The notes beneath the pieces were generated by a model. That model was not told the origin of the DNA. It searched no databases and saw only the letters and a list, made by a program, of their open reading frames with translations. From Bacillota bacterium (GTDB lineage Bacteria > Bacillota > Clostridia > Ch29): a stretch of 64,000 bases of DNA. The stretch covers positions 1 to 64,000 of the forward strand of contig JABVCK010000017.1 of assembly GCA_013540605.1 (NCBI GenBank), given 5' to 3'. This document shows positions 23,484 through 47,192 of this stretch, piece by piece (the stretch's first letter is position 1; each line of letters starts with the position of its first letter). A program made the position numbers and the translations under genes.

Positions 23484-23543
23484 AGAAAAAAGGGTCGTGA
23501 CCGTCACGAGAGCGGGCCAATGCCCGCAAAGGAGGTCTTGAAA

Positions 23544-23792
23544 ATGTATCAATTGACTGATGCCGCGAATGTCACGGCAAAAAATCTTATTATCGCCGGC
23601 CTAGTCGCAAAAGCTGAGGCCGGCATGCTAAATGACTATGACTACATGCTGATGAATGAACTATATATCACGCAGGAAGTTGAATCGAAACTATATCTTC
23701 GTAGCGGTTGTGAGCCAAACGAAGACGAAGAATTTTTCGCCGAGTGCTTCCCCGATTTGGACACAAAAAAATTGCCTTGGGAAACGGACTAG
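23544..23792 (+). CDS. Small acidic protein, copy 1
   Basis: An 82-residue protein with AAAGGAGG upstream of ATG 23544. The first half is helical (NVTAKNLIIAGLVAKAEAG), the C-terminal third very acidic (EPNEDEEFFAECFPDLD). I do not recognise it. Its leader holds the hammerhead motif and a hairpin just before the ribosome binding site. Strong acidity and location near anti-CRISPR-type genes would fit a DNA-mimic or anti-defence protein, but that is speculation. Confidence 0.65.
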   Translation: MYQLTDAANVTAKNLIIAGLVAKAEAGMLNDYDYMLMNELYITQEVESKLYLRSGCEPNEDEEFFAECFPDLDTKKLPWETD

Positions 23793-23928
23793 GAGAAAGT
23801 CAAGCGGGTACTGAGAATTGAGAAGTTTGAATGCAGAGTGACGCCGGCACCGCCGGCGGTAATGCCCTCCCGGGAAAACCGGGAACCGTCACGAGAGCGG
23901 GCCAATGCCCGCAAAGGAGGTCTTGAAA

Positions 23929-24177
23929 ATGTATCAATTGACTGATGCCGCGAATGTCACGGCAAAAAATCTTATTATCGCCGGCCTAGTCGCAAAAGCT
24001 GAGGCCGGCATGCTAAATGACTATGACTACATGCTGATGAATGAACTATATATCACGCAGGAAGTTGAATCGAAACTATATCTTCGTAGCGGTTGTGAGC
24101 CAAACGAAGACGAAGAATTTTTCGCCGAGTGCTTCCCCGATTTGGACACAAAAAAATTGCCTTGGGAAACGGACTAG
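23929..24177 (+). CDS. Small acidic protein, copy 2
   Basis: Identical to the gene at 23544-23792 including its ribosome binding site and upstream hairpin, but without its own promoter or hammerhead motif. It is produced by the 385-bp tandem duplication and would be read from the same message. Confidence 0.65.
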   Translation: MYQLTDAANVTAKNLIIAGLVAKAEAGMLNDYDYMLMNELYITQEVESKLYLRSGCEPNEDEEFFAECFPDLDTKKLPWETD

Positions 24178-24285
24178 GAGAAAGTCAAGCGGGTACTGAG
24201 AATTGAGAAGTTTGAATGCAGAGTGACGCCGGCACCGCCGGCGGTAATGCCCTCCCGGGAAAACCGGGAGCCGTCACAAGGCGGC

Positions 24286-25518: not shown

Positions 25519-25644
25519 CAACCGGAGCCGTCGAGTACATTATACCAGGCGGCTTCGGGATACAGCCTTGAATATGAGGCTGACAACTTCGCCTTTGACC
25601 AGGAGTCTATCGGCGAACAACTGCGGGACTTGTTCGCTCAGTGA
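25519..25644 (+). pseudogene. Remnant frame without a start codon
   Basis: This 42-codon open stretch looks protein-like (YQAASGYSLEYEADNFAF, then QESIGEQLRDLFAQ) but has an in-frame stop just upstream and no usable start. It is probably the 3' end of a lost gene. The TGA lies 15 bases before the next start. Confidence 0.35.
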
Positions 25645-25658
25645 AAGGAGAAATAAAA

Positions 25659-26117
25659 ATGAATGATGACTATTATCTTTGGGGAGTTTCTTTCTATTGT
25701 CCAGTTTGCGGACGGAGCCAGATCCCCGCCGAAGAAATGACGGGGATGTTCCCAAATTATATTTGTAAAAATTGTGAAAAAAAGGAGAGGGAAATGAAAA
25801 AATTAGCCATCCTCAATACATCTATCATCACTGCTGAGGGAGATTATTCCCTGCGGCAAATCTCCTTGGAGCAGGCGCAGAAGCTTGCTCAGGAAAACGA
25901 GATCCTATCCGCCGTCGGGCACCAGTCCACAGCGGATATTCTGACCGAGATTCTCGGCGTCCCTGTCCCACTCAATCGGATCGTATTTGAGCAGGAGTTG
26001 GGGCAAAAGGCCCTAGTGTTTAAGCTCAACGGGCGCCCTCCGGAGGGGAAAATCCTCTCCAGAGCAGAAATTGAACAGATTGGATACAAATTCCAATTAC
26101 TAACAAGGGAGGGGTAA
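25659..26117 (+). CDS. DUF1874/AcrIII-1-type ring nuclease with N-terminal zinc ribbon
   Basis: The 152-residue protein has two parts. Residues 14-39 form a Cys4 ribbon (CPVCGR, CKNCEK). From Met46 on, the sequence follows the DUF1874 family: a LNTSI strand start, GHQST at 87-91 with the His in the position catalytic in AcrIII-1, NR at 106-107, and RPPEGKIL at 126-133. AcrIII-1 proteins cleave cyclic tetra-adenylate and switch off type III CRISPR signalling. ATG 25659 follows AAAGGAG. An internal ATG 25794 has AGGAGAGGG eight bases before it and would give the 107-residue stand-alone enzyme. Both products are likely. Confidence 0.8.
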   Translation: MNDDYYLWGVSFYCPVCGRSQIPAEEMTGMFPNYICKNCEKKEREMKKLAILNTSIITAEGDYSLRQISLEQAQKLAQENEILSAVGHQSTADILTEILGVPVPLNRIVFEQELGQKALVFKLNGRPPEGKILSRAEIEQIGYKFQLLTREG

Positions 26118-26559: not shown

Positions 26560-26599
26560 AATAATACCATAATAACAACAATTGTCAAGGAGTGGTTCA

Positions 26600-27016
26600 A
26601 TGGCTATCTGTCCAATCTGCGGCAGAGAGACAAGAGGCAAAAACCGCATCTGTGATTCGCCAATCTGCCGGAAGGAGTTGCAAAACTCCTGGTATGAATC
26701 ATCTATCGCCATACCAGAGGGATATCTCTCTGTTACCGAATTTGCCAAAAAGCGGAATATCTCTGTCCAGGCCGTAGCAAAGAACTGCCGCGCAGGGAAA
26801 TACCCTGGCGCTGTCCAAGAACCCCAATCCGGTCGATGGTATATCCCGGAAGACCTGGAGGGGACCATCCCGCTTGCGGAGTTTGTCCGGCGCACCGCCC
26901 GGATGAAGATCAAGGCCACGGACAAGGAGTGGCAAAAGATCGTCGAGCGCGCAGCTGCGACAAAATACTCAGTCAACGAATATCTGATCAGGCTCGGCCT
27001 GGGAAAATCGGTTTAA
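26600..27016 (+). CDS. Zinc-ribbon plus excisionase-like HTH protein
   Basis: ATG 26600 follows CAAGGAG. The 138-residue protein has an N-terminal Cys4 cluster (CPICGR, CDSPICRK). A MerR/Xis-type winged helix follows (LSVTEFAKKRNISVQAVAK, wing GRWYIPEDLEG). A C-terminal helix pair (KEWQKIVERAAATKYSVNEY) resembles ribbon-helix-helix proteins. Its position two genes before the recombinase suggests a recombination directionality factor or island regulator. Confidence 0.65.
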   Translation: MAICPICGRETRGKNRICDSPICRKELQNSWYESSIAIPEGYLSVTEFAKKRNISVQAVAKNCRAGKYPGAVQEPQSGRWYIPEDLEGTIPLAEFVRRTARMKIKATDKEWQKIVERAAATKYSVNEYLIRLGLGKSV

Positions 27017-27036: not shown

Positions 27037-27267
27037 GTGGGGAACTATATCGCGTCAAAAATTCTGTTTAAAAATCTGGACGTGGAGAAATATACCGTTC
27101 AGATCGACGGGAAAATCTATCATTGGTACGGCGACGACGATCCCGAATATCTGGATGATGGGGTATTAGATATTAGTTATTGGGATCTATTTGACGCCGA
27201 CGGTAAACCTACAAACATGGTGCTGGCCTTTGACCGTCGCGAAGATATGGATGATCCGCAGGAATGA
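27037..27267 (+). CDS. Small acidic protein
   Basis: A 76-residue protein, GTG start with AAGGAGG upstream. About a third of residues are Asp/Glu (YGDDDPEYLDDGVLD; FDRREDMDDPQE). This composition is seen in DNA-mimic inhibitors, but no family is recognised. It lies between the excisionase-like and recombinase genes. Confidence 0.55.
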   Translation: MGNYIASKILFKNLDVEKYTVQIDGKIYHWYGDDDPEYLDDGVLDISYWDLFDADGKPTNMVLAFDRREDMDDPQE

Positions 27268-27334
27268 AGCGATAAATATGACAGCAAGAATCCTATGATA
27301 TTGGCATTTAACTAAGCTAGGAGGCTTGAGTCTT

Positions 27335-29005
27335 ATGAACCCTAAATCCCATCTTGACTATTACAGCCAGGTTTATCCTGATGCCTGGAAGCAGATAGAC
27401 AACATGCGGGCCGACCGGGGCAAGGAACTCCCCTTCTGGCCGGAATGGTGCTTCCTTCCTTTATCCGGGGCCTATGCCATTGTGACCGCAGAGGCAGACG
27501 CACAAGGGGTGGATATACATAATCCGGAATACGTCTGGGTTGTCAATGATGTCGGTGTAATCGGTGCCCTAGCCGCCTGGCGCGTCACCCAAGGAGTTTA
27601 TCGGTTTGACCCCGATGTCTATAAAGCGGTCATTGATACGCCCATCACCGGCGACCTGCCGCATGACGTGCTATTTAACCTGCCTGAATGGTGCATCTAC
27701 ATCGAGGCACCGGGCCTATCGTATATGGGCGCCGACATTTCCGGATTTTACGCCTATCTGGAGTATGATGCCAGAACCTACCGCAAGGAACTGCGGTTTG
27801 TCATGGACATGGTTACGCCCCCGGATGTCAACCGGCCTATGCTTATCTCCCAGGCGCTCCACTTGGGAGACTGGTCGCTCCTGGAGTCCGTGGACCGGGC
27901 CGCGCAAGAAGCGCAAAAACATGCAACGACCAAACTATGCGAGGAGGTTTATGCCAGCGCTGTATCAGCCCTGCAAGCGGAACTTATGCCTCTTGTGTCG
28001 CTCCTGCTGTATATCTGCAGCGTCAACGGCGATATAGGCAACGGCAAAAAGATGCCGACTAGGCCAACTCCTGTTAATACCCGGAAGGGGCTGCGTTTAT
28101 TCCCGCCGTCGAAGGCGACTACATGGGACGTAGGGGTCCGCATGGGGGCCGCGCTCAGACAGGCGCAAGAAGTCGCCCGGGAAGCCGAAACCCAAGAACA
28201 GGTCGAAGGCAAACATCGTTCTAGCCCCAAACCACATGTACGCAGAGCGCATTGGTCAACCTATTGGACGGGGCCGAAAAGCGGCCAGCAAAAAGCAATT
28301 TTAAAATGGCTCTCGCCTATGCTTATCGGCGAAGGGGACATACCGGTCACAATAAGGAGGCGCATAAAATTGGCTGAAAGAAAGCGGCAGCCTAAGAAAT
28401 TGCCTAAAATAATCAGCCGCGAAGATATGCGGAAAATCCTGGATATACCTAATGTCAAGTGCATCACGGGATTAAGGAACCGAGTCATTTTGCAGATCTT
28501 ATACCGCGGAGCCTTACGAGTTGAAGAATTATGCAACCTATCACTGCAAGATATTATCCTGCCGCCACCGGGCGTGGATGCCCAGGAGGGCTATATTTAC
28601 GTCCAGCAGGGCAAAGGCGCCAAGGACCGATACGTGGTTATTGATGCCGAAACGGTTGCTTGGCTCCGGCTGTGGATGGATAAACGCCTGCCGGGGGAAT
28701 ACCTGTTCAACTCTCACCGGGGGGCAAAGTTAGATCAATCCTATGTTCGCAAATTGGTTTATATGTGCGCCGAAAAAGCCGGAGTATGTCTTCAGGATGG
28801 CAAAGAAAAGGCGCGGGTACATCCTCATACCCTACGGGCTTGCTATGCCACGGAACGGCTTGAGGAAGGCAAAAATATCATCTACATTCAGGAACAACTA
28901 GGCCATTCCAGCCTAGCCACAACCAGAATTTACACCCAGATCAGGCCAGCCCTGCGCCGCCAGATTGCAGAAAATATTGAACCGATTGGGGGCTTCCCGG
29001 TATGA
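27335..29005 (+). CDS. AcrVA2-like domain fused to a tyrosine recombinase
   Basis: ATG 27335 (AGGAGG ten bases upstream) opens a 556-residue frame. Residues 1-335 follow the AcrVA2 anti-Cas12a family: WCFLPLSGAY near 38, WRVTQGVYRF at 82-91, NLPEWCIYIE at 115-124 and KPHVRRAHWSTYW near 299-311. Residues 345-556 are a tyrosine recombinase catalytic domain with Arg395 (ALRVEEL), Lys near 427-430, HTLR at 498-501, His524 (LGHSS) and Tyr533. The usual core-binding domain of integrases is absent, and the Acr domain takes its place. TTG 28370 (residue 346) has AAGGAGG nine bases before it, so the recombinase could also be made alone. AcrVA2 is known to reduce Cas12a production. The recombinase is the only intact integrase candidate here. 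Confidence 0.85.
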   Translation: MNPKSHLDYYSQVYPDAWKQIDNMRADRGKELPFWPEWCFLPLSGAYAIVTAEADAQGVDIHNPEYVWVVNDVGVIGALAAWRVTQGVYRFDPDVYKAVIDTPITGDLPHDVLFNLPEWCIYIEAPGLSYMGADISGFYAYLEYDARTYRKELRFVMDMVTPPDVNRPMLISQALHLGDWSLLESVDRAAQEAQKHATTKLCEEVYASAVSALQAELMPLVSLLLYICSVNGDIGNGKKMPTRPTPVNTRKGLRLFPPSKATTWDVGVRMGAALRQAQEVAREAETQEQVEGKHRSSPKPHVRRAHWSTYWTGPKSGQQKAILKWLSPMLIGEGDIPVTIRRRIKLAERKRQPKKLPKIISREDMRKILDIPNVKCITGLRNRVILQILYRGALRVEELCNLSLQDIILPPPGVDAQEGYIYVQQGKGAKDRYVVIDAETVAWLRLWMDKRLPGEYLFNSHRGAKLDQSYVRKLVYMCAEKAGVCLQDGKEKARVHPHTLRACYATERLEEGKNIIYIQEQLGHSSLATTRIYTQIRPALRRQIAENIEPIGGFPV

Positions 29006-36396: not shown

Positions 36397-37244
36397 CAGC
36401 CATCATCCTGTTCTTTGAGAAATTCATCAACGTATCGGCCCGCATCATTTGGGGCACGTGAAGGAGGTTGAAAATTAATAATATCCCAAGGAGACGGTTC
36501 TTTGTTTCCCATAAATTTTTCAATGTTATCTAGGATTTCTAATTCTGTCTTAAAGCCAGAGACAATAGCCTCCTTGAATTTTTCTCTTGCCTTGACGGTT
36601 CCACCAATCCCAAAATGCTTACATTGATTTGGAAATTTTTTATTATATGCCCGTACAATTCCGTCAAGCGCACTATCTATATTTATATCTGTCTCTGTCT
36701 CTGTCTCTGTCTCTGTCTCTGGGGGCGTCACATCACCGTTTCTGTGACGTTTCTGTGACGTCACATCATTTATATCTGTCTCTGTCTCTGTCTCTGTCTC
36801 TGTCTCTGGGGGCGTCACATCACCGTTTCTGTGACGTTTCTGTGACGTCACATCATCTTGTTTTTTTCTTGATCTATATTGCTTTGTGCGCTCTTTACTT
36901 GTATCACTGTCGTAATTGCGCTTATCCCAATTTGTAACAACAAGTACCCCTTCTTCTTCGTGAAGCATGAGTAATTCTGTTTTAAATTTTTCTATCGCAG
37001 CGTTAACATCTTTAATCGGAGCATTAGCTTCGTCGGCAATATCATTTAAAGTAGCCGGTACTTGTTCGGATAAAAACAGTTTTCCTTGGACTGGACTTTC
37101 CTTAGCTATACAAAGAATTGCTATCCATATCCAACGGAACGAAATCGGAATTCTTCTGAGTTTCAGATCTCTAGTGATTTCCGTATAACATCTAAACCAT
37201 ATCTTATTAGCCGTACTACACCACCCCTTTGTACTGCTCCCCAT
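36396..37244 (-). CDS. Replication initiation (DnaD-like) protein, start created by duplication
   Basis: A 282-residue protein. The winged-helix N-terminus is typical of phage DnaD-like initiators (RIPISFRWIWIAILCIAKES; SEQVPATLNDIADEANAP). The linker is low complexity (TETETETETET), and the C-terminal DnaD-type helical tail is YNKKFPNQCKHFG to WDIINF. It would recruit DnaB to the origin. ATG 37244 exists only because a tandem copy joined the upstream sequence. In the undisturbed copy the same position has ACG after AAGGGGTGG. A 29-residue block is itself doubled within the linker. Confidence 0.7.
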   Translation of the reverse strand: MGSSTKGWCSTANKIWFRCYTEITRDLKLRRIPISFRWIWIAILCIAKESPVQGKLFLSEQVPATLNDIADEANAPIKDVNAAIEKFKTELLMLHEEEGVLVVTNWDKRNYDSDTSKERTKQYRSRKKQDDVTSQKRHRNGDVTPPETETETETETDINDVTSQKRHRNGDVTPPETETETETETDINIDSALDGIVRAYNKKFPNQCKHFGIGGTVKAREKFKEAIVSGFKTELEILDNIEKFMGNKEPSPWDIINFQPPSRAPNDAGRYVDEFLKEQDDG

Positions 37245-37753
37245 ATGCCCGTACAATTCCGTCAAGCGCACTATCTATATTTATATCTGTCTCTGTCTCT
37301 GTCTCTGTCTCTGTCTCTGGGGGCGTCACATCACCGTTTCTGTGACGTTTCTGTGACGTCACATCATCTTGTTTTTTTCTTGATCTATATTGCTTTGTGC
37401 GCTCTTTACTTGTATCACTGTCGTAATTGCGCTTATCCCAATTTGTAACAACAAGTACCCCTTCTTCTTCGTGAAGCATGAGTAATTCTGTTTTAAATTT
37501 TTCTATCGCAGCGTTAACATCTTTAATCGGAGCATTAGCTTCGTCGGCAATATCATTTAAAGTAGCCGGTACTTGTTCGGATAAAAACAGTTTTCCTTGG
37601 ACTGGACTTTCCTTAGCTATACAAAGAATTGCTATCCATATCCAACGGAACGAAATCGGAATTCTTCTGAGTTTCAGATCTCTAGTGATTTCCGTATAAC
37701 ATCTAAACCATATCTTATTAGCCGTACTACACCACCCCTTTGTACTGCTCCCC
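36645..37753. repeat. Tandem duplication of the replication gene's 5' part
   Basis: Unit 36645-37242 (598 bp) is repeated at 37243-37753 (511 bp). The 87-bp difference is an extra in-frame block in the first unit. Both carry a CTGTCT hexanucleotide array. Confidence 0.9.
37216..37725 (-). pseudogene. Truncated second copy of the replication protein gene
   Basis: The upstream copy encodes the same N-terminal domain and linker and then runs into GEQYKGVV and a stop, losing the C-terminal domain. No ATG, GTG or TTG starts it. The expected start position is ACG 37725 after AAGGGGTGG. An internal ATG at 37479 could make only a fragment. Confidence 0.7.
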
Positions 37754-45915: not shown

Positions 45916-47192
45916 TTATTCCTCCGCTTTAACGACTTTTCCGGCTTTCAGCCGGTACCAAGTATCAGCCTTGATTTTCTCGCCATCTACTAATACAGCC
46001 TTGTACTTTCGGTTTCATTCCATTGTTCGTCTGCATCAGCGAAACGAGTTGCCCCGGTGCCTTTGCCTTTGGCGCATGCCATAGGCAATAGCAGCACGCC
46101 CTTCTCGCCAACAGTTACTTCCTTCGTGCCTTATATGGCAGCGCCATAGTTCCAGCATTAATAGCGCCACAGAGTCCCAGCATTGGCAGCGCCATAGTTC
46201 CCAGCATTGGCAGCGCCATGGTTCGTTAGCGCCCTTGTGCCAACATTGGCGCCGGCGCAGCGTTGGCGGCGCCATGGTTCAACGTTAGCGGCGCCATGGT
46301 TCCCAGCATTGGCAGCGCCACGATCCCCAACGTTGGCAGCGCCACCGAAATCCCCAGCATTGGCAGCGCCATGGTTCCCAGCATTAGCAGCGCCACCGTC
46401 CCAACATTGGCAGCGCCAGTTCCCCAGCATTATGGCAGCGCCATGGTTCCAACATTGGCAGCGCCCTTGTACCCAGCATTGGCAGCGCCGTCCCAACATT
46501 AGCAGCGCCAAGGTTACAGCATTGGCAGCGCCATGGTTCCCAACATTGGCAGCGCCACCGTCCCCAGCATTGGCAGCGCCATGGTTCCCAGCATTGGCAG
46601 CGCCATGGTTCCCAGCATTGGCAGCGCCATGGTTCCCAGCATTGGCAGCGCCACCGTCCCCAGCATTGGCAGCGCCATGGTTCCCAGCATTGGCAGCGCC
46701 ACCGTCCCCAGCATTGGCAGCGCCATAGTTCCCAGCATTGGCAGCGCCATAGTTCCCAGCATTGGCAGCGCCCTTGTACCCAGCATTGGCAGCGCCACCG
46801 TCCCCAGCATTGTTGGTATCAGCAGAGGATATTTTCTTCTGAAAATCGAACTTCTCAAAAAACACTCTCACGGCTGCTTGCACTATTGACTTGACGCTTA
46901 TCTCGGCTCCAAAAGTAATCTTTTTAGCACAAACCTTACTATCGTCCGAATGGCCTTGGATCTCGCCGTCAAGTTCGACCTCGAAAAAACGGCTTTGTCC
47001 AGGACTGTAGTAACCAAAACACTCATGCGGCAGTATGCAGGCGTGGAATCCGCCCTTACCTTGCTGTTTAGCTTCTCGTTCTGTAGGGCAACATTTAACT
47101 TCCCCAGGATGGACATATGATCCGCCTAGTTCATACTGAAATCCTTGGCATTTCATATCTTTGTCTGTTCCCTTGGTAGCCTTTTCAGACAT
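45916..47192 (-). pseudogene. DUF7666-like protein with 8-residue repeats, multiply frameshifted
   Basis: ATG 47192 follows AAGGAGG. Residues 1-115 are a DUF7666-type head (GEVKCCPTEREAKQQGKGGF is typical). A repeat domain of GAANAGNH/GAANAGDG units follows. The frame changes several times in the repeats (runs such as CWNHGAAIMLGNW) and again after them. The expected C-terminus appears in two other frames (VTVGEKGVLLLPMACAKG, then YKAVLVDGEKIKADTWYRL), ending at 45916. An intact ancestor would have had about 420 residues. Confidence 0.7.
46186..46815. repeat. 24-bp coding repeat array
   Basis: About 25 copies of a unit close to CCCAGCATTGGCAGCGCCAT (24-bp period, alternating ATGGTT and ACCGTC ends). 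Several copies carry 1-10 base indels that break the frame. Confidence 0.9.

Follow-up and report, generated by a model that had tools for sequence, protein, structure and literature searches.

An AcrVA2-family domain in one frame with a short tyrosine recombinase in a siphophage: probably a recent merger of neighbouring genes

Does a phage gene that reads from an AcrVA2-like domain straight into a tyrosine recombinase couple the inhibition of host defence to integration, or does it record the running together of two neighbouring genes? The question is raised by a single frame in a window of 64,000 nucleotides, the whole stretch of DNA analysed here, which makes up nearly all of contig C20 (64,951 bp), a siphophage genome without host flanks. 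An earlier note on this DNA had read the frame as an anti-Cas12a domain fused to an integrase, and had proposed that the fusion links the two activities. The contig encodes a terminase, portal, major head protein, tape measure, Dit, DnaB-like and DnaD-like proteins and an antirepressor, and no terminal overlap that would prove its circularity was found. It also carries two pairs of direct repeats, each a real duplication or an assembly artefact, at 36768-37242 and 37279-37753 (475 bp, 100%), overlapping the DnaD-like gene, and at 23500-23900 and 23885-24284 (401 bp, 99%), and a tandem array of imperfect units of about 24 bp at 46136-46812, inside the ORF 46158-47192. The features around the fused frame are collected in Table 1.

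Table 1. Features of the gene run that ends in the fused frame (positions in the window).
Feature	Position	Strand	Remarks
AcrIII-1/DUF1874-like ring nuclease	25641..26117	+	PF08960 E=1e-27; domain begins at or near ATG 25794
Small DNA-binding protein, possible excisionase or regulator	26582..27016	+	weak Cox-like match, phrog_575 E=2.7e-4; NikA-like C-terminus, PF21983 E=1.3e-8
Small ORF	27037..27267	+	76 aa; GTG start with AGGAGG; between excisionase-like and AcrVA2-family genes
AGGAGG, Shine-Dalgarno site of AcrVA2-family gene	27319..27324	+	10 nt 5' of ATG 27335
AcrVA2-family domain, then tyrosine recombinase catalytic domain, in one frame	27335..29005	+	556 aa
AcrVA2-family domain	27335..28369	+	residues 1 to about 341-345; phrog_6160, 7ci1, Foldseek, C-termini of standalone relatives
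AAGGAGG, putative internal ribosome-binding site for recombinase	28354..28360	+	9 nt 5' of TTG 28370
Short tyrosine recombinase, catalytic domain only	28370..29005	+	211 aa from TTG 28370; PF00589; RKHRHY complete

On translation, all 556 codons of the frame are stop-free, and nothing interrupts it between its AcrVA2-like and recombinase halves, as had been claimed. A TTG at 27326 is an alternative start for the same frame, but it lies too near the Shine-Dalgarno site.

The N-terminal half belongs to the AcrVA2 family. Residues 9-332 match phrog_6160, an unnamed phage family (E about 1e-57 to 5e-57), residues 76-332 match AcrVA2 in PDB entry 7ci1 (phmmer, E=1e-16), and 33 residues are invariant across 10 homologues. 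An AlphaFold2 model built on a 39-row alignment reached a pLDDT mostly above 85 across residues 1-334, and a Foldseek search with the model bore out the likeness to AcrVA2, the significant PDB matches being 7ci1 (E=1.4e-16) and 7ci2 only, with TM-scores to the target of 0.68-0.75. In standalone relatives the protein terminates at a conserved 'PVxIRxV', which puts the end of the AcrVA2 part near residue 341-345; the assignment of residues 1-335 thus stands by sequence and fold, while its end has to be moved somewhat downstream.

The remainder of the frame, from residue 346, is a tyrosine recombinase. PF00589 matches residues 360-537 (E about 5e-31 to 4e-30), XerA/XerD structures match as well, and the catalytic residues R395, K427, H498, R501, H524 and Y533 are all present in invariant alignment columns, which confirms the complete R-K-H-R-H-Y set. 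Residues 346-556 contain no core-binding domain, again as the earlier note had it, whereas XerA, XerC and XerD (4a8e, 5hxy, 1a0p), which have the catalytic domain and residues in common with this protein, carry an N-terminal core-binding domain of their own. The gap might be taken as a sign of domain replacement, yet the two best matches in the phylum (about 400 genomes) are free-standing proteins of 191 and 187 aa, in G048 and G171, that also have no core-binding domain. Recombinases of this kind thus ordinarily lack the domain, and a replacement by the AcrVA2 domain was rejected. The G048 and G171 proteins have the same N-terminus and a common 'PNxKxxTGLRN' motif, and they are 38-39% identical over the catalytic domain, but they do not adjoin an AcrVA2-like gene; with nearest relatives this distant, the original pair of genes did not come to light. 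No close relative was confirmed in IMG/VR, and a recombinase tree meant to show descent from the short proteins had long branches that did not settle the sister relation. A single-sequence structure model of the recombinase was unusable (pLDDT 33), and the C-terminal part of the joint AlphaFold2 model is poor because the alignment is thin there. The contig yielded no further tyrosine recombinase and no serine recombinase.

The junction DNA reads ACA ATA AGG AGG CGC ATA AAA TTG GCT GAA, in which the in-frame TTG is the codon of residue 346. The spacing of its Shine-Dalgarno site resembles that of genuine starts of the contig (7-10 nt), and in-frame internal combinations of AGGAGG and a start occur only twice in 11,886 codons of its 61 predicted genes, the junction being one of the two. 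As a start codon TTG is weak; RNA folding around the junction is unremarkable (z=-0.5) and gives no sign of hiding it. Read from this codon, the recombinase begins MAERKRQPKKLP and aligns with the standalone starts MAKRKPRRLP and MARQRLP. At the equivalent place, AcrVA2-family relatives at 55-57% identity have ATAAGGCCGGTAAAATAG (L105), ATTAGACCGGTTGAATAG (L104) and ATCAGGCCGGTAGATTAG (L056); these standalone proteins end '(ATA/ATC/ATT)(AGG/AGA)CCGGT...TAG', with the stop at about the recombinase start. The internal start aligned with short recombinases, together with the position of the relatives' stop, points to two adjacent genes that have merged, the recombinase keeping its own start. A recombinase dependent on the fusion is hard to reconcile with the Shine-Dalgarno site and TTG, which sit right at the junction, at the point where standalone short recombinases have their start.

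IMG/VR supplied 50 AcrVA2-family loci and about 85,000 species genomes supplied 79, along with 81 phage and 707 plasmid records. In the loci that were scanned with our own HMMs, 117 of them unique, no second frame held both domains, within the reach of a recombinase HMM that was made ad hoc and that divergent integrases may escape. None of the approximately 123,000 phage and plasmid records covered at least 80% of the fused query, and exact and degenerate junction patterns were absent from IMG/VR. In the literature three papers contain the terms for an anti-CRISPR fused to a recombinase, but judged by titles none deals with such a fusion. The join is a singleton, the fused gene is a variant built of known parts, and, as the architecture was found nowhere else, there is no support for selection having linked inhibition to integration. 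Proximity is another matter: of the 18 recombinases within 5 kb of an AcrVA2-family gene in the 117 loci, 17 lie at most about 2.5 kb away. In the IMG/VR phage L056, an AcrVA2-family protein 57% identical over 342 aa is followed on the same strand by an HTH excisionase-like gene and a recombinase of 181 aa that lacks a core-binding domain, although the genes there are separate and the recombinase is of another lineage (24% identical). The raw material for a merger thus exists. In an uncultured Desulfovibrio (L158:1514-3538), the frame of a full-length tyrosine recombinase starts 13 bp past the end of an AcrVA2-family gene in the same orientation, a near-merged pair. On a conjugative Thioflavicoccus plasmid (L044:1-5014), an AcrVA2-family gene lies immediately 3' of BREX genes (PglZ-domain, brxL).

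The plus-strand gene run that ends in the fused frame also encodes, 1.2 kb upstream, a ring nuclease with the 'GHQSTA' motif kept, which matches AFV3-109 (2j6b, E=7e-17) as well as STIV B116 (2j85) and AcrIII-1 (6scf). This CRISPR-inhibitor family differs from the AcrVA2 family in targeting type III signalling, and its member here is a neighbour, not within the fusion. AcrIII-1 removes cA4, the type III signal (PMC7293037), and the host genome has a type III-A Cas10 (G000:C34:14231-16588), so the ring nuclease fits this host. Cas1b and Cas4 are present too, and an array at G000:C34:19686-30344 holds 161 repeats (GTTTCAATTCCTCATAGGTAGGCTAAAATC). The longest match of its 160 spacers to the phage is 15 nt, like that of shuffled controls, and self-targeting was rejected. 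Convergent with the fused gene is a C-terminal TnpB fragment (PF01385, PF07282; 29214-29837, minus strand), probably a truncated IS605-type insertion.

Whether the N-terminal half should be called anti-Cas12a is another question. Cas12a (TIGR04330) was matched neither in the host and 40 relatives nor in any control genome, the latter meaning that the search had no positive control, and Cas12a is unlikely to be the target in this host. AcrVA2 of Moraxella prophages recognises the nascent N-terminus of Cas12a, upon which the Cas12a mRNA is lost (PMC13131331). The plasmid fertility inhibitor FinQ is described as ending the transcription of F tra prematurely (PMC8744291). FinQ of an IncI plasmid (finQ, L054:3908-4837) is homologous both to AcrVA2 (7ci1, E=2.3e-17, phmmer) and to the window domain (28% identity), and no paper naming AcrVA2 and FinQ together was found in the open literature. 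Since the family also contains FinQ, anti-Cas12a activity should not be assumed, and the label does not hold as it was given. The Moraxella proteins (7ci1, 7ci2) resemble the window domain in sequence and fold and are likewise phage-borne, close to prophage ends, but identity is about 26%, and the window domain reads into a recombinase and belongs to a host without detected Cas12a. FinQ differs again in acting on F tra expression and in standing alone, without a recombinase. By analogy with these two, the AcrVA2 family may consist of nascent-chain-guided silencers with different targets.

We think it probable that an AcrVA2-family gene and a neighbouring gene for a recombinase without a core-binding domain, part of what would be an anti-defence and integration cluster of the siphophage, were joined in frame when the first gene lost its stop codon. 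Translation from ATG 27335 would then give the 556 aa AcrVA2-recombinase fusion, and translation from the AAGGAGG-N9-TTG signal at 28370 a free 211 aa recombinase. On this reading both starts would be used and the recombinase would be active; the free form would likely serve the phage as its integrase or resolvase, with a further copy carried as a C-terminal passenger on the AcrVA2-family part. As in its relatives, that part probably recognises a nascent protein and causes loss of its mRNA, which would lower the expression of a specific gene of the host or of a rival element. If ATG 27335 is the sole start in use, the product is simply a fusion protein. As none of the other sequences searched contains the join, two adjacent genes have probably merged recently here, and a long-standing weapon with two functions is the less likely reading.

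A rival origin is that these are two ordinary separate genes, and that an error in base calling or assembly, or a private mutation of one isolate, has removed the stop between them. The joined architecture is a singleton, an internal Shine-Dalgarno site with a start is what a normal second gene would have, the stop of standalone relatives sits at the junction position, and perfect or near-perfect repeats of 401-475 bp on the contig could strain assembly. However, the genome is well assembled (99.55% complete, 36 contigs), the junction lies in non-repetitive sequence, and the relatives differ from the junction at several bases, not one, so that a single miscall would not explain the open junction; we regard this origin as unlikely. 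Decay, with the fusion a by-product of degradation and neither half functional, would agree with the close AcrVA2-like relatives in G388, which are interrupted by stops, and with the truncated TnpB that adjoins the fused gene. More than 550 stop-free codons, the full catalytic set, strongly conserved AcrVA2 motifs and good ribosome-binding sites at both starts make it very improbable.

At the other extreme, the fusion would be obligate and bifunctional, with the AcrVA2-family domain serving the recombinase in targeting, dimerisation or timing and with counter-defence coupled to integration, the link that the earlier note had proposed. The uninterrupted frame, the completeness of both domains with their conserved motifs and the frequent presence of recombinases near AcrVA2-family genes are all in keeping with it. 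Nevertheless, neither the 117 unique loci nor the approximately 123,000 phage and plasmid records held a second fused member, the recombinase possesses a start signal of its own as well as free-standing relatives, and DNA binding is not known for any part of the AcrVA2 fold, which leaves such a fusion quite unlikely. A bolder form would make the 556 aa protein a working bifunctional enzyme, whose AcrVA2 domain silences a defence gene through nascent-chain-directed mRNA loss while its recombinase integrates or resolves the phage genome, the internal start adding free subunits for mixed assemblies. We hold this to be decidedly doubtful; if true, it would be the first dual product of an anti-CRISPR family and an integrase from one gene.

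Should both starts of the merged pair be used, one phage gene would yield a fusion of a counter-defence family with a recombinase and a free recombinase besides, and the locus would be a simple natural gene fusion caught soon after its formation. The wider consequence concerns the family, which unites AcrVA2 and FinQ with a very broad range of proteins from phages and plasmids and extends far beyond the hosts of Cas12a. The grouping makes it testable whether mRNA loss triggered by a nascent peptide is the common silencing route of all members, and whether the 'transcription termination' of F tra genes ascribed to FinQ in the 1980s is the same mechanism.
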